The notes under the pieces: generated by a model
The model's database searches: none
The model's input: the letters and a program-made list of their open reading frames with translations, nothing else
Told to the model about the DNA's origin: nothing
Shown here: in pieces, positions 30,998 through 43,528 of the stretch
Layout of the letters: each line of letters begins with the position of its first letter
How positions within the stretch are numbered: position 1 is the first letter of the stretch
Origin: Ignavibacteria bacterium
GTDB taxonomy: Bacteria; Bacteroidota; Ignavibacteria; Kapaibacteriales; UBA961
DNA: 64,000 bases
Reading direction: 5' to 3'
Assembly: GCA_016873735.1 (NCBI GenBank)
Contig: VGWD01000007.1
Coordinates: 1 to 64,000, forward strand
Translations under genes and position numbers: made by a program

Positions 30998-33900
30998 ATG
31001 TCTTCAATAGTCAAACATATAGCCTGTTTTCTTTGTTGTTTAGCGACCGTAATGTCGGCTCAAGCTGAACTTACCACGCTGTGCAAACAAGGCAACATCA
31101 CTCTTACATATTCTTCAGGCAATTCTTCAAGACATCATGAATATGTCACTTTTGCCATGCCCGAAACAGCGGAAGCGATCCTCACGATCAAACCCTTGCA
31201 TATAAGAGCATGGTCGGGAGACACTTCAGGATTGTATTCGGTGATTCGAACATATCCGGAAGCAAAGATAGAACGCCGTTTTGTATATCGAGGAATACAT
31301 GTTGCCCGAGCAGTCATTCAGCCTATATTCAAAGATGAACAAGACAGACTTTTCATTGCCGACTCCTGCACCATCATCATCACTTCAAAGGGATTTGTCT
31401 CCAGTCCTGCATATCGCATTCCTGCAATTGAAAATGGCTTGCTTTCTCATATCATCAATCCTGAGCATATTCCATCAGCTCGAATATCGAAGAAAACCGA
31501 AGAAGTCATAGCGGATCATTGGTATTCTCCACAACAATCTTATGTAAAACTCATCACCAAAAAGGATGGCATCGCGCGATTTCCCTTGAGTAGGGCACTT
31601 GCATTGCAATCAGATTGGAAAGGCAAACCCTCTTCACATCTCGAACTCATATTCAAAGGCAAATCATATGCGATGGGCATCATTGATGCTGATGGCATGC
31701 TCGATGAACAAGACATACTGATATTCGCATCGAGAAGAGCCGAGGGTGATACCACATGGCATAATTATGTCACAGATGAAGCTTCATTCTTTCTCACGTT
31801 GAATAATCAGCCGTCAACTGCTCAACGATACACTGCATTTCCTCCCATCATGCCCATACTTGCCGACTCTTCGGTTAGTGTTCGTTTGCATCATGAAAAG
31901 GATTCCGAGTTTTATGCCGGCGATGTGATCAGTCCGATCGATTATCGCTATCTCTCATCGGACTTTTCAACCGGGAAGAATTTCTTTTGGAATAAAATCA
32001 GCACGGTGCAAAAGTTTCGGACATTCATGGACACGATTCATGTGCCTTCTGCACAAGAAGCGATGTCTGTTGACATTGCATTTCATGGTGCAAATGACAG
32101 ACCCTCAATTGACTTCGAACATCGCTTTGACATTTTTTGGAATGATAATCTCATCACAAGAGATTCTTTTGCGGGATTTGCCGATCATGTGACAACCATG
32201 CAAATTGCTCCAACGTTGATAAAACATGGCGCGAATATTCTGCGCATTGAATCAATTCCCATTTCTGACACGATTGTCACCGAATGCTTCATCAATCATG
32301 TGACAACATCATCGATATCATCCCCCCGTATGCTAAACGGTGAATTGTTTTGTGAAGACTCACTCAGTAATGCAGCATCACTTACTCTAAGAGATCTACG
32401 AACTGCTTCTTTTATCGCGCTCGATACAGCAAGAACTTTCATGATGAATGGCATTGCTTCCCCATCAGGTAAATTATTCACGGCAGATCTGTCACTCACG
32501 CCCGGCCACTTCAAAGGAATCATTGCAGATTCACTTGCATGGATTGAACCTGAGATTCAAACTGTCTCAAAAAGTGTACTGAAAGATTCTGCAAGACAAG
32601 CCGATGTGTTATTGATATCTCATCCTGCTTTCTTGCAAGCTTCCGAGCGCCTTGCCGAGCATAGGCGAAAGCAAGGTCTTACGGTTTCAGTAATCTCTAG
32701 TGAAGACATTTATAAAGAATTCGGTGATGGCTCCAAAGATGCACATGCAATCAAAGACTTCATCCGTCATACACATCGCTCATGGCAATTCCCCGTTCCT
32801 GCTTATGTCATTCTGATGGGCGATGCAAGCTGGGATCCATTGAAACTCACATTCAAAGCACATCAAGAAGATTTTATTCCATCATTTGGTTTTCCCGTCA
32901 GTGATATTTGGTATACCACACCGAGCAATGATTCCATTGATCCTGAGCTCATTCTTGGAAGATTGAGCGTGAGTTCTTCTTCACAAGCGGAACAGGTTGT
33001 AGATAAATTGATTCAATATGACACATTGCAAGCCGGACCATGGATGAAGAATTTTCTCTTTCTCTCCGGTGGTGATGAAGATGATCCATTTTTCCATAAT
33101 CAATTCGATGGCATTGCTCCATTTGTTCTGGATCCTCCTGTTTCAGGTGATACAATTCGCATACGACGCATCAACAAAATTGGTGGAGTGGATGAAAGCA
33201 TTGCAACAAAGATTAGGTCGGCGGTCAATGATGGAACATTGTGGGTGAATTTTGCCGGACATGGTTCGCCCGAATATTTTGAATTGGATGGATGGCGTTC
33301 ACAGGATTTGAATAATCCTCGAAAATATTTCATGCTCACCACCTTTTCCTGCAATTCAGGAGCATTTGCCGAACCAACCACAGTCTGTAGAAATGAGTCT
33401 TATGTTCTCGAGCCGGGCAAAGGAGCAATTGCATCTGTTGGCAATACCTATACCGGAATCACAACTCCTGATTACTATAATTTCGTGAAGATGTATTCTG
33501 CAATGTCAAAGTATGGTTTGCGCAGAATTGGCGATCTTGTTTTTTCGACAAAAATCGGTCAGGGAAATACAACAGACCCTTTCTTCAGAAATTCCATGAT
33601 GCAATTTTGTTTGATTGGCGACCCTCTCACGAACCTTGCGCTTGCACCGCAACCTGATTATTATGTTCGATCTGAAGATGTGCAAGTTAATCTTGTGACC
33701 GCTACCGATGAAACATTCACCATTCAGGGAGTGATTCGCAATCGTGGAATCAAGGATACCATGCCGGTTCAAGTGTATTGCATTCGTTCCTTTGCTGATC
33801 GGAAGGACACGATATCGGTAACCTATCAGGGATTTGCTCGAGAGCAAGTTGTGTCATTCACGTTCCCAACGCTTAATCAATCAGGAATTCATGGAATCAA

Positions 33901-36283
33901 TATCATCATTGATCCTGCAAAATCCATTAATAATGAAGCGATTACAACAAATAATATTCTTGCATTTCCGGTGAATGTTTATGCTGCGACTCTCACGGTG
34001 ATTGATCCTCTACCCGGCTGGAATGTTCAAGCAGATAAACCTCGATTCCGTTTTTTGCTTCCATTGCGTAATCGTGAATTCACTTCCTATGAATTACGCA
34101 TCGAGGCATTGGATGGAACCGTGATTGCAGACTTTTCAGGCATGCAGTCTTCCACGCTCACATTCGGTGAATTGCATGTGGATTGGACTCCGAATATTGT
34201 GCTTGCTCCCGGTGTGAATTCACAGAATTATCTTTTGTATACCAGAACATTCGATACAAAAACATCTCAATACAGCCCATGGGAAGTGACTCCATTTCAT
34301 GCTTTATCATCGTCAATCAATGATACGGCATTCATTCATGTGAAGAAACTCTTTTCATTACCGGAAGCACGCACTATTGGTCTGGCAGAACAAGCTCAAT
34401 CCGGTGCTCTTACACTCGGTGCAAAAATTGTTCCCTTGCTGATTGAATCATGCAATGGCGGTGAAGATTTCCGATATGGCTATCTGCGCTTCGGCAATCG
34501 TACATTCATAGAAAGAGTAGATGGCTCAAAGTGGAATCTTCTTCATCTGAAACCATTCGACAGCATCGGGATCTATAGAGATTTCGATGCCTTTTATGGT
34601 GCTCAGGAAGATAGATATCGTGCAGGCAATAGCGGAGATTTGATTCGCTATTTGAGAGATTCCGTTGCAATTGGAGATCACATTGCAATCAGTGTTTCCG
34701 ATGGGTCTTTCCGTGGTGCTCTTGTAACACCAAATGGCATGGATGGCGATGCTGAATCATTCATGAAAACATTGAAAGCATTCGGCGCGCAACAAATCGA
34801 CTCAATATTTAAAGCACAATCATATCCGGATGGATCTACGATTGCGAATGATGATCGATATCGTATTTCCTATGTAATGTATGGAGTGAAAGGCGGCATG
34901 CCCGGAAGTGCCAAAGAATTATTCGGTGCATACAATGATACATTATCATTGAATGTTGAACACTCCATTGCATTCAAACAAGGAATGTATTCAACCGGTC
35001 CTATAGGTCCGGCAATTGCATGGAAAGAATTATATGTACAAGACTCCTTAAACAATCAAGGTGCTTTGCAATATTATCTTCATGGCTGGAATAGCGGAAA
35101 ACAGAATCGTACATTGATTGATTCCTCATACACAGGGACATTTTCGATCAATGCAATCGATGCATCTCGGTATCCCTATCTTGAAATCGAATCGTTATTC
35201 TCACGTCAGGCCGGCTCTCAAAGCCCCATGTTGAAAACCCTGAATGGTGTATATCTTCCTGCCGCTGAATTGGCTACTGTTCCCTCTTCACTAAAAGTGA
35301 AAGGCACGGAACAAAGACCCGGTGGCCCCATTCGTGGTGACAGCATGTCATGCGAACTCGATATTTATAATCTGTCACTACGCCAAGCTTCCAATCCAAC
35401 AATTCAATTATGCATCACTCAACAACCATTGAGTGGTGGTGGCAGCACTGAGACATCGATAAGCAGTTTGCAGAGCATACCAAAGGATTCACCTATTTCA
35501 TATCAGATGAAAGCATCAACATTTGAATTGTCTGCTATTTCAGAATGGACCGCTCACATCAATTGCGAACAAAATAAAGCAGAATTGTTCTCATTCAATA
35601 ATACGGCTAAGCAACAATTGACTATCGGCGAAGACACCGAACCTCCAACCATAGAAATTCTCGCGGATGGCAAAGTGGTGAGAGAATACGATGTCGTGGC
35701 ACTCAATCCACGCATCACGGTTCGTATTCTCGATAATGCCTATTTGCCGATCGATACGACTAAAACATTCATTCGAACCAATCCATTTGCTGTGAGATCG
35801 GATAGAAATATTCGTGATTATGCATTTGTGCGTGGAACTTATGGAAATGCAATGCGCGCTGAATTTTCCTATGTCCCGGAAAATAGATTGGAAGTTGGAG
35901 AGAATATCATCTATGTGATTACGGAAGATGCATCTGCAAACAAAGACACACTCCGTAGGACCGTCTTGGTTGTGCTCAATAGCTCAATCAATGAATTATC
36001 CAATTATCCCAATCCTGTACTTAGTGGATCACCCATCAATTTCGATCTCACCTATGCTTCGCAAGTAAAGGAAGCCTTGTACACCCTTACAATAGCAGAC
36101 ATTCGTGGCGCTATCGTGCATGCAATGAAGGGGAATGTTTCGATCGGAAGAAATACGATTGCATGGAATGGAAGAAATGCTGAAGGGACACCTATGCCGC
36201 CGGGTGTATATGTGTATCGACTGGACATCACCGGTGATACATTCGTGGAACCGAGCTATGGAAAGATGATCATCATTGAATAA
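30998..36283 (+). CDS. C25 (gingipain/PorU-like) cysteine peptidase with T9SS C-terminal domain
   Basis: 1761 residues. Signal peptide about 1-23 (LATVMSAQA). The N-terminal 500 residues resemble PorU-type prodomains (YSPQQSYVKLITKKDGI). The C25 caspase-like domain spans about 530-885, with the catalytic pair H755 in VNFAGHGS and C785 in TTFSCNSGAF, 30 residues apart as in gingipains. Then a CARDB-like beta domain (about 885-990), a region resembling the interleukin-like EMT inducer fold (about 1185-1310, see findings), and a C-terminal FlgD/T9SS module (YPNPVLSG ... TIAWNGRNAEGTPMPPGVYVYRL). It could be the T9SS sortase PorU or a secreted protease; the great length argues for the latter. Its start is 89 bases from the divergent monooxygenase gene. 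Confidence 0.8.
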   Translation: MSSIVKHIACFLCCLATVMSAQAELTTLCKQGNITLTYSSGNSSRHHEYVTFAMPETAEAILTIKPLHIRAWSGDTSGLYSVIRTYPEAKIERRFVYRGIHVARAVIQPIFKDEQDRLFIADSCTIIITSKGFVSSPAYRIPAIENGLLSHIINPEHIPSARISKKTEEVIADHWYSPQQSYVKLITKKDGIARFPLSRALALQSDWKGKPSSHLELIFKGKSYAMGIIDADGMLDEQDILIFASRRAEGDTTWHNYVTDEASFFLTLNNQPSTAQRYTAFPPIMPILADSSVSVRLHHEKDSEFYAGDVISPIDYRYLSSDFSTGKNFFWNKISTVQKFRTFMDTIHVPSAQEAMSVDIAFHGANDRPSIDFEHRFDIFWNDNLITRDSFAGFADHVTTMQIAPTLIKHGANILRIESIPISDTIVTECFINHVTTSSISSPRMLNGELFCEDSLSNAASLTLRDLRTASFIALDTARTFMMNGIASPSGKLFTADLSLTPGHFKGIIADSLAWIEPEIQTVSKSVLKDSARQADVLLISHPAFLQASERLAEHRRKQGLTVSVISSEDIYKEFGDGSKDAHAIKDFIRHTHRSWQFPVPAYVILMGDASWDPLKLTFKAHQEDFIPSFGFPVSDIWYTTPSNDSIDPELILGRLSVSSSSQAEQVVDKLIQYDTLQAGPWMKNFLFLSGGDEDDPFFHNQFDGIAPFVLDPPVSGDTIRIRRINKIGGVDESIATKIRSAVNDGTLWVNFAGHGSPEYFELDGWRSQDLNNPRKYFMLTTFSCNSGAFAEPTTVCRNESYVLEPGKGAIASVGNTYTGITTPDYYNFVKMYSAMSKYGLRRIGDLVFSTKIGQGNTTDPFFRNSMMQFCLIGDPLTNLALAPQPDYYVRSEDVQVNLVTATDETFTIQGVIRNRGIKDTMPVQVYCIRSFADRKDTISVTYQGFAREQVVSFTFPTLNQSGIHGINIIIDPAKSINNEAITTNNILAFPVNVYAATLTVIDPLPGWNVQADKPRFRFLLPLRNREFTSYELRIEALDGTVIADFSGMQSSTLTFGELHVDWTPNIVLAPGVNSQNYLLYTRTFDTKTSQYSPWEVTPFHALSSSINDTAFIHVKKLFSLPEARTIGLAEQAQSGALTLGAKIVPLLIESCNGGEDFRYGYLRFGNRTFIERVDGSKWNLLHLKPFDSIGIYRDFDAFYGAQEDRYRAGNSGDLIRYLRDSVAIGDHIAISVSDGSFRGALVTPNGMDGDAESFMKTLKAFGAQQIDSIFKAQSYPDGSTIANDDRYRISYVMYGVKGGMPGSAKELFGAYNDTLSLNVEHSIAFKQGMYSTGPIGPAIAWKELYVQDSLNNQGALQYYLHGWNSGKQNRTLIDSSYTGTFSINAIDASRYPYLEIESLFSRQAGSQSPMLKTLNGVYLPAAELATVPSSLKVKGTEQRPGGPIRGDSMSCELDIYNLSLRQASNPTIQLCITQQPLSGGGSTETSISSLQSIPKDSPISYQMKASTFELSAISEWTAHINCEQNKAELFSFNNTAKQQLTIGEDTEPPTIEILADGKVVREYDVVALNPRITVRILDNAYLPIDTTKTFIRTNPFAVRSDRNIRDYAFVRGTYGNAMRAEFSYVPENRLEVGENIIYVITEDASANKDTLRRTVLVVLNSSINELSNYPNPVLSGSPINFDLTYASQVKEALYTLTIADIRGAIVHAMKGNVSIGRNTIAWNGRNAEGTPMPPGVYVYRLDITGDTFVEPSYGKMIIIE

Positions 36284-37595: not shown

Positions 37596-38729
37596 TCACT
37601 GAGCAATGCCAATGACCGTGCAAACATCATCAACGATGGAATCACCTACAATGGTGAATGGTATATCCATCGAAAATGCCCCTTTCCTTTTTGGTGTGAT
37701 CCGAATGGTACAGCTTATAGAACTGTTCTTATTTAATGTTTTGGGAGTAAACACTTCGATAAACAATGCATTGCATGAGGGATTATCGAATGATTGTTTG
37801 GCTTGTATAATACTGCAAGAACCAGATGTATTGTTCACAAATGTGCATATGGCATCAAATGGCACATTGGTTGATGCCGGAAACATTCGAATATCCGTCA
37901 CATAGATTCCGCTTTTCAAAAAGACGCTTGAAGAGCACATTGCCTTATGCTTCACTCTTCCCTTTCCTGAATATGAGATATCAGCTGAGATCTGTGCATT
38001 GATGTTCAAACCCTGGGCCGAAGATTTACTGCGAAGTGGAATCGAGATGCTTGTGCCCGGTTGTAAAGCATAGGGAAATATCAGTTTTGAGAGAAGTTCA
38101 AATTGATCAATATCACCATCAGTAAATTCAATAGAAGAAATGATTGCCGTTTCTGTTCCATAATTATACAGGCGTATGACAGTATCACGCACTTCACCAA
38201 AGGGAATAGAACCAAAGTCCACATCTTCTATCCACACTCTCGTACCACTCAAGACCATCGCCGTGAGCGGAATGAAGACATTCTTCCAGCCATTGATGAG
38301 CAATGTATCCTTGAATTGACCTTCGGATTTGGGATTGAATCGAATGGGTATTGACTTGGAGTATCCCTGCTGTGTTTTTGGAGTCAACACAAAATGTATG
38401 GAATCAGAAGTCAAGGAGAATCCCTGATTCCCATGCTTCAATCTGATGGAATCAATCGGGATGAATAAGGAATCCGAGCCATTTGCAAAGACAATGCTCT
38501 TTACGATTTCTTTGGAGGGATATTCTGTTTCGAAGGCAAGTGAAGTTGGTGACAATATCAATGCTGATCGATGCAATGAATCTTTGGTGACAGAATCCAC
38601 GATTGTTCGGGTGCGATCGGCAGAGACATCATTCACCGGCGTGCAAGATGAAAATGTCCCGATGATGACCATCACCGAGACAAACCATGCGATGATGAAT
38701 CGCTTATCGAAGTGAAATTCTCGCACCAT
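37596..38729 (-). CDS. ASH/choice-of-anchor-type lipoprotein in sigma-factor operon
   Basis: 377 residues. A hydrophobic leader ends in a lipobox GTFSSC (Cys about residue 29). The mature part contains Ig-like beta domains of the ASH/DUF1573 type: ILSPTSLAFETEY ... IPIRFNPKSEGQFKDTLLINGW (about 57-150), then VWIEDVDFGSIPFGEVRDTVIRLYNYGTETA (about 165-195, in part), and a third with TPKRKGAFSMDIPFTI near the end. Such domains act as protein-binding spacers in the envelope. The start overlaps the end of the anti-sigma/barrel gene by 26 bases, so both are likely translated together. Confidence 0.65.
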   Translation of the reverse strand: MVREFHFDKRFIIAWFVSVMVIIGTFSSCTPVNDVSADRTRTIVDSVTKDSLHRSALILSPTSLAFETEYPSKEIVKSIVFANGSDSLFIPIDSIRLKHGNQGFSLTSDSIHFVLTPKTQQGYSKSIPIRFNPKSEGQFKDTLLINGWKNVFIPLTAMVLSGTRVWIEDVDFGSIPFGEVRDTVIRLYNYGTETAIISSIEFTDGDIDQFELLSKLIFPYALQPGTSISIPLRSKSSAQGLNINAQISADISYSGKGRVKHKAMCSSSVFLKSGIYVTDIRMFPASTNVPFDAICTFVNNTSGSCSIIQAKQSFDNPSCNALFIEVFTPKTLNKNSSISCTIRITPKRKGAFSMDIPFTIVGDSIVDDVCTVIGIAQ

Positions 38730-39900
38730 AGGTGATGCCTGCTTTTTGTGTGCTGAACCACTGTCCTTGATAGGAATACAATGTGCTCATACCTTCAATA
38801 CCGCCAATCAATGTGATTGATTTGCTCACATCATATTCCATTCCCAATGTCATTCGAGCCATCGGTCCTGTCTCCATACCACCCGCACCAACTCTGATAA
38901 GTGGACGAATTGCCTGATTTCCCACAAATCGATGCTGCCATCCTATAATGGCCCATGGTGCCAAATATGTTTGATTGTATTGAACGGTGTAATTATTCTC
39001 TGTTCCGGTATAACGTTGAGCAAGTGATTCTTGTCCTACTTCAACAAAGACTGCATCTTGTTCTGTCACATCATAATGGAGTCCGACAGATATATTGTTG
39101 ATGAATGGGTTATTGACCGGAATGACCGTTTGATCAACAAATGAATGTTGTGTAAAACCACGCATGGTGAGTGAAAAGGGGGAATGTTCTTTATCGCTAT
39201 TATCAATCTTTGGTGTTGATTCAAATGCCTTCGGTAGAAATGATTGATCATTCGTCGCTAAAGCACGTTCAGATTGTTGCTCTTGCTTTTGTGAAACATC
39301 AACAATCTCTTGCTGAGCAATCGGCATATCAGAAGGTGCATCCACTTGCTGAGCAATATTCTTCGTTTCAATGGATGTTTGTGCATTGGAAAATGCAGTT
39401 TGCATTGTCTTTGGAGCCATGCTGATTGTTTGCGAAGATGCATTGCTTTCCGATGCGAAATTCGATTGCACGATTTTGGGTGATATAAATGATTGTTGAG
39501 CAATCGCTGTTTCGGACATCTGCTTTGCATCTTGTCGGGATGCAAAGTAAAGTCCTGAAAGAGTTGCACCAACAAGCATGAACATGAGAGGTTGAACCGC
39601 TTTGCCAAGCCAAGTGGTCACGCCTTGCATCATTCCTGTGGAAACAGGATTGTTCACGGAAGCACCAATTGCAATTGCCCCAATCCTGCGCATGATGGAT
39701 TCTTGCATAGCTTCAGGTGGCATGATCAATGTATTATCCATAAATCTACGCATCGTGAAATGATCCTGCATTTCTTGTCGTAAATCCGCCTGCTCAGAAA
39801 GCATCGTGAACAAGGATGGTTGCATCGCTTCCGGCAATTCACCGTCCATGTATAATGTGAGCATTTCCGATGGACTCAAGTGTGAAAATTCCTGACTCAT
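38704..39900 (-). CDS. Anti-sigma factor-like protein fused to a C-terminal outer-membrane barrel-like domain
   Basis: 398 residues. The N-terminal 75 residues are cytoplasmic and match the start of anti-sigma factors (LSPSEMLTLYMDGELPEAM ... LRQEMQDHFTMRRFMDN), but without the His-x3-Cys-x2-Cys zinc motif. A hydrophobic segment follows (about 98-118, LMFMLVGATLSGLYFAS), then a long Gln/Ser/Ala-rich linker (about 120-235). The last 160 residues look like an outer-membrane barrel (FSLTMRGFTQHSF, ISVGLHYDVTEQDAVFVEVG, RPLIRVGAGGMETG, AGITYGARISLR). This order would let one protein span the whole envelope. Ten bases after the ECF sigma gene, which is its likely target. Confidence 0.7.
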   Translation of the reverse strand: MSQEFSHLSPSEMLTLYMDGELPEAMQPSLFTMLSEQADLRQEMQDHFTMRRFMDNTLIMPPEAMQESIMRRIGAIAIGASVNNPVSTGMMQGVTTWLGKAVQPLMFMLVGATLSGLYFASRQDAKQMSETAIAQQSFISPKIVQSNFASESNASSQTISMAPKTMQTAFSNAQTSIETKNIAQQVDAPSDMPIAQQEIVDVSQKQEQQSERALATNDQSFLPKAFESTPKIDNSDKEHSPFSLTMRGFTQHSFVDQTVIPVNNPFINNISVGLHYDVTEQDAVFVEVGQESLAQRYTGTENNYTVQYNQTYLAPWAIIGWQHRFVGNQAIRPLIRVGAGGMETGPMARMTLGMEYDVSKSITLIGGIEGMSTLYSYQGQWFSTQKAGITYGARISLR

Positions 39901-39910
39901 GGCTTTTTAT

Positions 39911-40519
39911 TCAATGTTTATACAAATCATCAATAAAGGGCTGAAGGATCACTCTGATCTTCTGCTTTGCGCGATAAATACGCGTTCTTACTATCGGCAT
40001 TGAGGTCTCGACTATTTCCGCGATTTCATTATAACTGTAGCCATACATTTCTCGCAGAATCAATACTTCTTTGTAATCTTCAGGAAGCATTTCAAGTGCA
40101 GTCGATATTAATCGAGACAATTCTTTCTGTTCATATGGAGTATCCAATGACGGAAACTCAAAATTCTCAATCGTGATTGTGCTGGTATTATATTTCTTCG
40201 CTTTCTCATTCAAACACAAATTGCGGGAAATCTTCAGCAAATATCCCTGAACATTTTGAATCTCCTGTCCGGCAACTCCCGTTTCATAAAAGCGAACGAA
40301 TGTTTCCTGAAAAATATCATCGGTGGCTTGAACATCACCAAGTATCTTCCGTACATAAGAGTAAATTCTTGGTGAATATCGTTTATATAACACGCTCAAT
40401 GCTTGATGTGCACGATTTCCACCCCCACTGAGCATGGCATACAATTGGACATCTGTAAGCTCTGATAACTCGGTGGATGCAGACTTATGGGACCTATTGA
40501 AGGATGAATCCCTGTTCAT
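39911..40519 (-). CDS. ECF-family RNA polymerase sigma factor
   Basis: Alternative sigma-70 factor of the extracytoplasmic-function type, 202 residues from the ATG at 40519. Region 2: ALSVLYKRYSPRIYSYVRKIL and ATDDIFQETFVRFYE (DNA opening and core binding). Region 4: LISTALEMLPEDYKEVLILREMYGYSYNEIAEI (in part) followed by the recognition helix SMPIVRTRIYRAKQKIR. It heads an operon with the anti-sigma/barrel fusion and the ASH lipoprotein. A 10-bp palindrome ACACATGTGT at 40545-40554, 26 bases upstream of the start, may be an operator but is short. Confidence 0.92.
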   Translation of the reverse strand: MNRDSSFNRSHKSASTELSELTDVQLYAMLSGGGNRAHQALSVLYKRYSPRIYSYVRKILGDVQATDDIFQETFVRFYETGVAGQEIQNVQGYLLKISRNLCLNEKAKKYNTSTITIENFEFPSLDTPYEQKELSRLISTALEMLPEDYKEVLILREMYGYSYNEIAEIVETSMPIVRTRIYRAKQKIRVILQPFIDDLYKH

Positions 40520-40567
40520 CGTGAACATCCGCATTAATATGTGAACACATGTGTAAAGAGTTGATTT

Positions 40568-41860
40568 TCAGGGATTTGTTACACTCAATCCCTTCTTGCC
40601 GATATCGGTACGAAAATATCTGTGATGATAATGAATATGCTCCAAACCGTCATATGCATGTTGTATAGCATCGGCAAGTTCTTCGCCTAAACCACAGATT
40701 CCCAAAACCCTGCCTCCTGCCGTGACGATTGTTCCATCTGGCAATAACTTCGTACCAGCGTGAAAAACATGCACATAGGGTTCTTGATTTGCTTTGTCCA
40801 AACCAAGGATCACATGACCTGTTTCATAATCATCCGGATATCCTCCCGAAGCCATCACAACATTACAGGCAAATCCTTTGGATCTGAATTGCATGGCAGA
40901 GTGATCCAATTCGCCGATCGCAGCCGAATGGAGAAGTTTCGCAAGATCCCCACGGAATACACTGAGGACCGCTTGCGTTTCAGGATCGCCAAATCTGCAA
41001 TTGAATTCGACTACGGATGGATTACCGGCATCAATCATGAGTCCTACAAATAAACAACCGACAAATGGATATCCTTCTTCAAGCATGGCCTTAAGCATAG
41101 GAATCACAATATCATCATGAACTCTTTGCATCACTTCTTCTGTGACAATCGGAGCCGGTGCATAAGCACCCATGCCGCCTGTATTTTTTCCAAGGTCTCC
41201 GTCTTTCGCGCGCTTATGATCTTGTGCAGGAGCAAGAAGCACAACATCATTGCCATCGGTGATTGCAAACACAGATGCTTCTTCACCCTTAAGAAAATCT
41301 TCAATCACAATACTGGATCCGGCATCAGCGAAGAGTCCTGCAAAAATTTCATCTATTGCTTCATGTGCTTCATGATGTGTTTCAGCAATGATCACGCCTT
41401 TTCCTGCAGCCAAACCATCGGCCTTGACCACTATGGGAAGGGGTCTGTCATTCACATAGGCATGTGCTTCATGTGCATGCTCTTTGGTGAATCGCTCATA
41501 TCCGGCTGTGGGAATGCCATGTTTTTTCATGAGATCTTTGGAAAATCCTTTTGAGGATTCTATCCGCGCGGCTTTTGCAGATGGACCAAACACTACAATG
41601 TCATGCTTGCGCAAATCATCGGCCAAGCCCTTGACGAGGGGTGCTTCGGGACCAACAACCACCAAGTCTATTTCATGCTGCTTACAAAATGAGACAATCG
41701 TGGCCGAATCATTGAGTGATATCGAATCCACAAGGGTGGCAATGTTCTTCATGCCCGGATTACCTGGGAAGACGAACAATGTTCCCAAAGAAGGAGATTC
41801 ATGTAAGCCGAGGGCAAGAGCATGTTCTCTTCCGCCTGAGCCGATGAGCAGGATATTCAT
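40568..41860 (-). CDS. purD: Phosphoribosylamine--glycine ligase
   Basis: Second step of purine synthesis: joins phosphoribosylamine and glycine with ATP. 430 residues from the ATG at 41860 (MNILLIGSGGREHALALG, the invariant start); an ATG ten codons upstream is in frame but not conserved. ATP-grasp domain with ADGLAAGKGVIIAE and FLKGEEASVFAITDG, then HKRAKDGDLGKNTGGMGAYAP and VVEFNCRFGDPETQ (metal site), and the C-terminal domain with GGRVLGICGLG. Divergent from the VWA lipoprotein gene, with 99 bases between the starts. Confidence 0.97.
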   Translation of the reverse strand: MNILLIGSGGREHALALGLHESPSLGTLFVFPGNPGMKNIATLVDSISLNDSATIVSFCKQHEIDLVVVGPEAPLVKGLADDLRKHDIVVFGPSAKAARIESSKGFSKDLMKKHGIPTAGYERFTKEHAHEAHAYVNDRPLPIVVKADGLAAGKGVIIAETHHEAHEAIDEIFAGLFADAGSSIVIEDFLKGEEASVFAITDGNDVVLLAPAQDHKRAKDGDLGKNTGGMGAYAPAPIVTEEVMQRVHDDIVIPMLKAMLEEGYPFVGCLFVGLMIDAGNPSVVEFNCRFGDPETQAVLSVFRGDLAKLLHSAAIGELDHSAMQFRSKGFACNVVMASGGYPDDYETGHVILGLDKANQEPYVHVFHAGTKLLPDGTIVTAGGRVLGICGLGEELADAIQHAYDGLEHIHYHHRYFRTDIGKKGLSVTNP

Positions 41861-41959
41861 GGTGATGTCCAAATGAGTGTTTCCGAACACAATTTACAAA
41901 ATGTGAAAGAAGCACTATCATGGAAACTTCTCGATTGCATATCCGTTATATTTGGCATC

Positions 41960-43528
41960 ATGAAGATTCGCATACTTCTTTTCATCATGTTATTGCTTCC
42001 GCTGGCCGGGTGCCCTCATACACTCATCAAACAAGTGGAAGAATTACGTCCGCCACCGGGCTATAAACCCATCTATCAAGTCGCGGAAAAATCCATTGAT
42101 TCCGTTCTGAACAATGTCCCTTTCTCGGCCATGAAGGCAGCCGCCTTTGATTCAATGCTCACATTGATTGAATCCGGCAGACTGAATCCCGATAGCATGA
42201 TTGTAATGCCGAGTTCTTCAATCTCAACATCTGTCATGGGAATCGATGATCGCTCTTATCCTGATAGCATTCATGTGAAACTGAGCATTAAAGATGAACG
42301 CGGACATTTTTTAAGAGGTTTGGCCGGACCCAATCGGAGCAAGAAAATCTCCGGTAAAGATTCAGTCTGGCGCATGCTCATTGATTCATGTGCGGTGAAT
42401 CCCCAAAAGTCCCCATGCTCTCAATTTTCGGTGCGAGAAATCAGCGAGGATATTCGCAAGCCGATTGCTTTGTCGATGGTGCTGGATCATTCGCCTTCCA
42501 TGGGTGAAATGCGCGCCCGCAAATTGCAAGAAGCAGTTCGCACCACAATGGATATGCTCACCGATGATGATGCAATTGCAGTGATTAAATTCACATCCAA
42601 GATTCATAGAGAAATTCCGCTTACAAGCAATTATCAAACCTATACTACTCAACTCAAGATTGATGGTCTTCGCGGCATTCAGTCTTCACCAATTTCCATC
42701 AGTTTCCGAAGCAGCAAAGACACCGTCGAAGAAGAACATTATGGCGGCGGAACTGCCATCTATGATGGAGCATTGGCAGGCATTGATGAGTTGAAAAAAA
42801 CCAGCAATACAAGAAAAGTGATGATTGTGTTTTCGGATGGTGGAGACAATGCCTCAAAATCCGATCAAGATTCAGTTATTCGTGAAGCTCGCAAACAGGG
42901 CGTGAATATTTATACCATAGCTTATGGCATCACCGATGAAGAACCCATGCATGATTTGGCTGAACAGACCGGCGGAAAAATGTATCGCATTTATTCTTCA
43001 AAAGAATTTCCATTTGTCCTGGCTGATATTGTCAAAAGCATGAAGAACCATTATCTCATCAGTTATGCTCCTCCCATGTCTTCAGACATTCATGGAGTTT
43101 ACGGCATAGTTTCCCTGCGTACAGACTTGACAAGTTCATTCCATGGCTTCTATGACAAAACAATTCTTCATGCTTGGGATGCCGAAGGAACGATGCACTC
43201 CGCATTGATTGAATTCGAAAGAGGAAGTTCAGCCATTCCTTCAAGCGCAAATCAAGTGGTGATGGATATATTCAATTCATTGAAATCTGCACCAAAAATG
43301 TCAATTGAAATTCGTGGTCATACAGACGATATAGGAAAAGAAGAAGACAATGAGCAATTATCCATTTCTCGCGCGCAATCAGTGGCGGGTGCATTGATTG
43401 CAAAAGGCATCGCAAAATCCAGACTCATCATCACGGGCAAAGGAGAAAGCATGCCGCTTGTCCCCAATGATTCCGAGGAATCTCGAAAGAAAAATCGTCG
43501 CACGGAATTCATCATCAGAAACAAATGA
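41960..43528 (+). CDS. Lipoprotein with VWA domain and C-terminal OmpA domain
   Basis: 522 residues from the ATG at 41960, which starts a lipoprotein signal (lipobox PLAGC, Cys about residue 18); the open frame upstream has no signal peptide. Central von Willebrand A domain (about 165-365) with the metal-binding MIDAS start DHSPSMG, GGGTAIYDGALAGI and FSDGGDN. The C-terminal 110 residues are an OmpA-type peptidoglycan-binding domain (IEFERGSSAIPS, IEIRGHTDDIG, LSISRAQSVAGALI, NRRTEFII). Likely an envelope anchor that uses the VWA domain to bind other proteins. ATGA overlap with the next gene. Confidence 0.85.
   Translation: MKIRILLFIMLLLPLAGCPHTLIKQVEELRPPPGYKPIYQVAEKSIDSVLNNVPFSAMKAAAFDSMLTLIESGRLNPDSMIVMPSSSISTSVMGIDDRSYPDSIHVKLSIKDERGHFLRGLAGPNRSKKISGKDSVWRMLIDSCAVNPQKSPCSQFSVREISEDIRKPIALSMVLDHSPSMGEMRARKLQEAVRTTMDMLTDDDAIAVIKFTSKIHREIPLTSNYQTYTTQLKIDGLRGIQSSPISISFRSSKDTVEEEHYGGGTAIYDGALAGIDELKKTSNTRKVMIVFSDGGDNASKSDQDSVIREARKQGVNIYTIAYGITDEEPMHDLAEQTGGKMYRIYSSKEFPFVLADIVKSMKNHYLISYAPPMSSDIHGVYGIVSLRTDLTSSFHGFYDKTILHAWDAEGTMHSALIEFERGSSAIPSSANQVVMDIFNSLKSAPKMSIEIRGHTDDIGKEEDNEQLSISRAQSVAGALIAKGIAKSRLIITGKGESMPLVPNDSEESRKKNRRTEFIIRNK

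Follow-up and report, generated by a model that had tools for sequence, protein, structure and literature searches.

The window, a stretch of 64,000 nucleotides from the 2.26-Mb draft genome of an Ignavibacteria bacterium (order Kapaibacteriales), contains an operon for an anti-sigma factor whose single chain is predicted to end in an outer-membrane-type beta-barrel. This is a second lineage of the kind of device known as Dma in Bacteroides, and its modules are apparently, as far as sequence comparison tells, unrelated to those of Dma. Two things are new: this lineage, together with its signature-bearing partner lipoprotein, and a promoter-like element that precedes the sigma gene and is conserved in 7/7 genomes of the genus.

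Organization of the operon

Three consecutive open reading frames on the minus strand, at positions 37596-40534 of the window, encode an ECF sigma factor, the anti-sigma protein and a lipoprotein. The sigma factor (39911..40534, minus strand, 207 aa) matches both Pfam Sigma70_r2 (42.1 bits) and r4_2 (55.3 bits) above the cut-offs. It is followed, after exactly 10 bases (39901-39910), by the gene of the barrel-fused anti-sigma factor (38704..39900, minus strand, 398 aa), which overlaps the lipoprotein gene (37596..38729, minus strand, 377 aa) by 26 bases. An earlier note on this DNA had described the same spacing and an overlap with the lipoprotein gene, and the coordinates of the frames agree with it. 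Its position for the sigma gene also stands, but its start does not: an internal ATG at 40519 had been taken, and the frame runs to 40534. The operon is flanked by a purD-like gene upstream and a lipB-like gene downstream, both identified by sequence alone. Among the NCBIfam sigma models, PG0214/GFO_1088 ranks first for the window; it was considered as a link to barrel fusions and rejected, because in the three f24 loci read the anti-sigma factors are short and have no barrel.

Domain structure of the anti-sigma protein

We modelled the 398-residue protein with AlphaFold2 on an alignment of 29 family sequences. Residues 10-72 (39685..39873, minus strand) form a helical domain, and the family profile of this region matches short anti-sigma factors from other loci with an hhalign probability of 98.4%. 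RseA_N matches weakly in 7/29 relatives (best E 2.9e-4) and not in the window protein itself; zf-HC2 also gives weak matches in the anti-sigma domains of relatives, and a Pfam search of the protein up to E 5 gives no FecR match. The protein contains no cysteine and therefore has no zinc motif, in accord with the zinc-less anti-sigma-like start proposed in the earlier note. The single transmembrane helix that the note placed behind this domain is likewise predicted by the model and by hydropathy: the inner-membrane helix comprises residues 92-122 with a hydrophobic core at 102-120 (39535..39627, minus strand; hydropathy peak 1.47, a moderate hydrophobicity), and lies within a long modelled helix of residues 92-130 with middling pLDDT.

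The tether that follows, residues 123-239 (39184..39534, minus strand; pLDDT mostly below 50), is disordered in the model from about residue 131 to 236. With 117 aa, including 17 Gln and 17 Ser, it agrees with the Gln/Ser-rich linker of 115 residues reported before. Across the family the tether measures 105-167 aa (median 123), none of the 29 sequences falls below 105, and its conservation is the lowest of all regions, whereas the barrel is about as conserved as the anti-sigma domain. A floor on length combined with a drifting sequence is what a periplasm-crossing tether predicts, and we take it as support for such a role. The contour length of the tether, about 40 nm, exceeds ordinary periplasm widths and leaves slack. 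This slack argues against a mechanical ruler, in which the tether would report the distance between the membranes or their detachment and stretching would pull the anti-sigma domain; such a ruler would also leave the lipoprotein signature unexplained, and we regard it as improbable, although the length floor and the altered vesiculation of Dma mutants (PMC13088901) are in its favor. Long disordered linkers are also prone to proteolysis, and the tether might be cleaved after export, in which case the barrel half and the anti-sigma half would work independently as two proteins. However, the fusion is retained in every family member read and no split barrel/anti-sigma genes were seen among them, so that we consider cleavage quite unlikely.

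The model gives residues 240-398 (38707..39183, minus strand) as an outer-membrane-type beta-barrel of eight strands at 242-396; the block-mean pLDDT ranges from 76 to 97 and exceeds 87 in most blocks. The closest folds in a search with this domain are OmpA, NspA, OmpW, OprF and PagL; the PDB matches to OmpA, NspA, OprF and OmpW have VIA Z of 13-15 and rmsd of 2.2-3.8 over 115-146 aligned residues, and a Legionella porin reaches VIA Z 16. A PDB sequence search with the whole anti-sigma protein found no meaningful match. In the strands hydrophobic and polar positions alternate, and the conserved charged residues R247, E287, E291, R349, E369 and K386 sit on the polar face while the opposite face is hydrophobic, a pattern that fits a transmembrane barrel. 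The C-terminal residue is Phe in 14/29 members. We are confident that the predicted fold is of the eight-stranded OmpA/OmpW/OprF type, and insertion into the outer membrane is predicted from it. The barrel-like C-terminus of the earlier note is thereby borne out, and structure prediction, which the note had proposed as a check, returns an outer-membrane-type barrel and not a soluble periplasmic domain. A lipocalin-like soluble barrel in the periplasm could be supposed from the presence of avidin and PsbO in the fold list. Yet these rank lower than the outer-membrane proteins, the conserved charges share the polar face across strands opposite a hydrophobic one, and a C-terminal Phe is frequent; a soluble barrel is thus very improbable. 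The outer half of the barrel is as conserved as the inner half, and loops L3 and L4 are above average, which suggests a common partner at this end.

Distribution and paralogues

The barrel-anti-sigma protein is present in 60/61 related genomes, drawn from its genus, its family and its order, and this conservation excludes a chance resemblance. There are up to 26 matches per genome, some of which are pieces of one gene. In a sample of the class, strong matches (E up to 1e-20) were obtained in 57/197 genomes, of which 33 belong to the order and 24 to several other families; in a wider sample of the phylum, matches outside the class cover little beyond the anti-sigma part. The earlier note had suggested looking for the same gene order in related genomes, and the order sigma factor, barrel-anti-sigma protein, lipoprotein is kept in nearly all loci read.

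A second copy in the same genome, on contig 1 (L132:2309-7373), consists of a sigma gene, a barrel-anti-sigma gene, a lipoprotein with the sequence CKSPIDL and a gene for a protein of 831 aa, in which Ig-like and CarboxypepD_reg domains are combined with a type IX secretion tail (PF18962, above cut-off). The 831-aa protein is possibly a target gene of this paralogous operon.

The partner lipoprotein

The lipidated Cys of the window lipoprotein is residue 29, and Ig-like domains follow. NCBIfam choice_anch_D matches it with E 8.7e-11, slightly below the model cut-off; ASH/HYDIN Ig-like matches are below cut-off in this protein and above it in relatives. The lipoproteins encoded by the third genes vary in length and domain content, and several have Ig-like domains of the ASH type. 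Starting at the lipidated Cys, they share the consensus C-x-x-P-x-[DE]-[VIL]-x-x-x-R, with P4 in 19/22, D/E6 in 19/22 and R11 in 17/22 lipoproteins; in the window the corresponding peptide is CTPVNDVSADR (38613..38645, minus strand), in which the Pro stands one position earlier than in the consensus. Mean pairwise identity is 0.35 at residues +2 to +11 and 0.15 elsewhere. Among 36 other predicted lipoproteins in the window and the loci, the signature occurs in five, and all five are third genes of loci of the same family. The signature is therefore specific to the family and not a general sorting signal. It is not absolute, since a few lipoproteins lack the Arg and one family member (L032:721-3040) has as its third gene an exported 301-aa protein, outer-membrane-protein-like by eye, in place of a signature lipoprotein. 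The earlier hint that the neighboring lipoprotein matters has gained support from this family-specific signature.

From these sequence features, the N-terminal peptide of the lipoprotein probably docks on or in the barrel, and the peptide is a concrete candidate for what the barrel reads. When about 47 tests were corrected for, covariation between the signature and barrel residues was not significant; of the five highest-ranking positions, four (S383, P346, Q310 and Y375, all non-significant after correction) are near the outer loops.

A promoter-like element in front of the operon

The element TGTAAC-N18-TCTTTA (40554..40583, minus strand) precedes the sigma gene by about 20 bases. Besides standing upstream of the operon in each of the seven genus genomes, it has a single occurrence in its own genome, where the reversed pattern, used as a control, has nine sites. 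Part of the element overlaps the end of the purD-like gene, and coding constraint may thus contribute to its conservation. Across the order, GTAAC-N15-18-GTTA precedes 10/36 sigma genes, against a mean of 0.1 and a maximum of 1 in 200 shuffles, and never on the reverse strand; these statistics are partly post hoc because the motif was formulated after the sequences had been inspected. A generic enumeration of bipartite motifs gave no signal above shuffles. The form of the element, which resembles a -35 and -10 pair, and its position suggest that the sigma factor may activate its own operon.

Relationship to Dma of Bacteroides

The earlier note had called fusions of this kind poorly described, which was an overstatement: proteins of the Dma family have the same architecture, in which an anti-sigma domain at the N-terminus is followed by a transmembrane helix, a long disordered tether and, at the C-terminus, a beta-barrel, and they have been studied genetically (PMC13088901). 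Dma genes adjoin those of ECF21 sigma factors, and Dma2 lies within a three-gene operon (PMC13088901). In Bacteroides thetaiotaomicron, a dma2 deletion has a phenotype that depends on Das2, and it increases the expression of das2 and its neighbor; this is a functional precedent for the switch proposed below. Dma mutants are changed in vesiculation, and deletion of the third gene, BT_1557, in the dma2 mutant leaves vesiculation unaffected (PMC13088901). Because of this last result, a role of the lipoprotein may not carry over between that system and the present one.

We traced the Dma2 locus through its DUF4943 neighbor in two genomes taken as Bacteroides; the gene order agrees with that of BT_1559 to BT_1555, and prediction makes the DUF4943 protein a lipoprotein. 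A Dma2 orthologue modelled in the same way has an eight-stranded barrel with the same closest folds as the barrel of the window. The window protein thus resembles Dma (Dma1/Das1 and Dma2/Das2) in its anti-sigma domain, transmembrane helix, tether, eight-stranded barrel and adjoining ECF sigma gene, and the three-gene layout is similar to that of Dma2, with a predicted lipoprotein third in both. However, no sequence relationship is detectable in the anti-sigma or barrel domain, the third gene of Dma2 encodes a DUF4943 protein whereas here it encodes the signature-peptide lipoprotein, often Ig-like, and this order, unlike Dma, carries many paralogues.

Profile comparison by hhalign between the two groups gives 4% for the anti-sigma domain and at most 20% for the barrel, whereas positive controls, halves within each family, give 97-100%. 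Short anti-sigma factors match the Dma anti-sigma domain at 6-70%, compared with the near-certain match of the window family described above. In the sigma tree, the sigma factors of the window family and those adjacent to Dma form two separate clades with SH-aLRT of 99 each. On the profile comparison and the separate sigma clades we therefore describe the window protein as Dma-like by architecture and do not file it as Dma.

An alternative possibility is that it is a true homologue of Dma that has diverged beyond sequence detection. The common domain order and strand number, the similar layout with the lipoprotein third and the occurrence of both groups in the Bacteroidota, where the NCBI taxonomy places Kapaibacterium, would be explained by homology. 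Furthermore, a single clade made up of both sigma groups is not rejected by an AU test (p 0.47), and PF13505 is above cut-off on the Bacteroides barrel and matches a few barrels of the window family weakly. Set against these are the low between-group probabilities, the unequal matches of the two anti-sigma domains to short anti-sigma factors and the two well-supported sigma clades, so that homology to Dma has some claim but seems to us unlikely. As the two anti-sigma domains seem to belong to different types, we favor independent assembly. That one layout has been made from apparently unrelated modules suggests that the design of a single chain passing through both membranes arose more than once in evolution.

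Further Dma-like genes adjoin sigma genes in other families of the phylum. In the f21 genomes (L105-L107) the neighbor of such genes is an exported protein of about 320 aa with a type IX-like tail and not a lipoprotein. In genome G077 (L127:1-2476), a sigma gene near the Dma-adjacent clade is followed by a protein of at least 656 residues, cut by the end of the locus.

A possible mechanism and its relation to other envelope-signalling systems

We think it likely that the operon encodes a self-contained trans-envelope switch, with one chain that would extend from the cell interior across both membranes to the outer surface. Residues 1-72 would keep the ECF sigma factor made from the same transcript inactive at the inner membrane, residues 92-122 would anchor the chain as a helix, the disordered tether would span the periplasm, and residues 240-398 would be inserted in the outer membrane as an OmpA-like eight-stranded barrel. 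With the conserved N-terminal peptide of the lipoprotein docked on or in it, the barrel would form a sensor together with the lipoprotein. A change at the outer membrane, such as a ligand, lost lipoprotein binding or envelope damage, might alter this complex and free the sigma factor through proteolysis or a conformational change, and the freed sigma factor would then activate the operon that encodes it, together with a linked surface protein in the case of some paralogues. A sensor of this composition is supported by the signature peptide and by the good conservation of the barrel in its outer half and outer loops, and a role of the anti-sigma protein in outer-membrane sensing is plausible.

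Another explanation is a built-in assembly checkpoint. Here the barrel would be among the clients of the machinery that assembles outer-membrane proteins, and an unfolded barrel would expose its C-terminus to a DegS-like protease, which cuts the anti-sigma factor; the system would then be a one-protein version of the sigma-E response, and the lipoprotein an assembly helper or a target gene. The C-terminal Phe of about half of the barrels, a feature of many outer-membrane proteins, and the resemblance of some members to RseA_N agree with this explanation. However, the many paralogues per genome with their differing lipoproteins exceed the needs of a general checkpoint, and the conserved outer loops suggest a surface partner. 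We therefore give an assembly checkpoint a rather low probability and prefer the trans-envelope switch.

The proposed switch shares with RseA/sigma-E a membrane-bound anti-sigma factor with a possibly similar helical anti-sigma domain, as the weak RseA_N matches in relatives hint, but its periplasmic part consists of the tether and barrel and not of an RseB-binding domain. With FecI/FecR/FecA it has in common that a signal starting at an outer-membrane barrel reaches an ECF sigma factor by way of an anti-sigma factor. In Fec, however, barrel and anti-sigma factor are two different proteins, the former a TonB-dependent transporter, and the window protein lacks the Pfam domain of FecR. In Escherichia coli, the lipoprotein RcsF signals the state of the envelope in complex with outer-membrane barrels (PMC4942254, PMC9907809). 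The combination of a lipoprotein and an outer-membrane barrel as a sensor is common to both systems as a functional analogy alone, since RcsF signals to IgaA and the Rcs phosphorelay without an anti-sigma fusion.

Other loci with related arrangements

Two candidates were rejected as family members. In one (L084:1489-2586), which stands behind an ECF sigma gene, an anti-sigma-like start and a transmembrane helix are fused to a trypsin-like serine protease-like domain; in the other (L083), a long frame ends in a domain similar to a carbohydrate-binding (AMPK-type) module. The genome of the window also has a locus (L005:1093-2691) with an ECF sigma gene, a short anti-sigma factor and a small exported protein that is Spy-like by eye, the same order as that of cirY-cirZ-spy reported from Phocaeicola vulgatus (PMC13114119). 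Two other frames in the window were judged by eye: a 1761-residue protein at 30998-36283 resembles C25-type (gingipain-like) peptidases and has a type IX secretion-like C-terminus, and a lipoprotein-like frame at 41873-43528 is von Willebrand A-like in its middle part and OmpA-like at its C-terminus.
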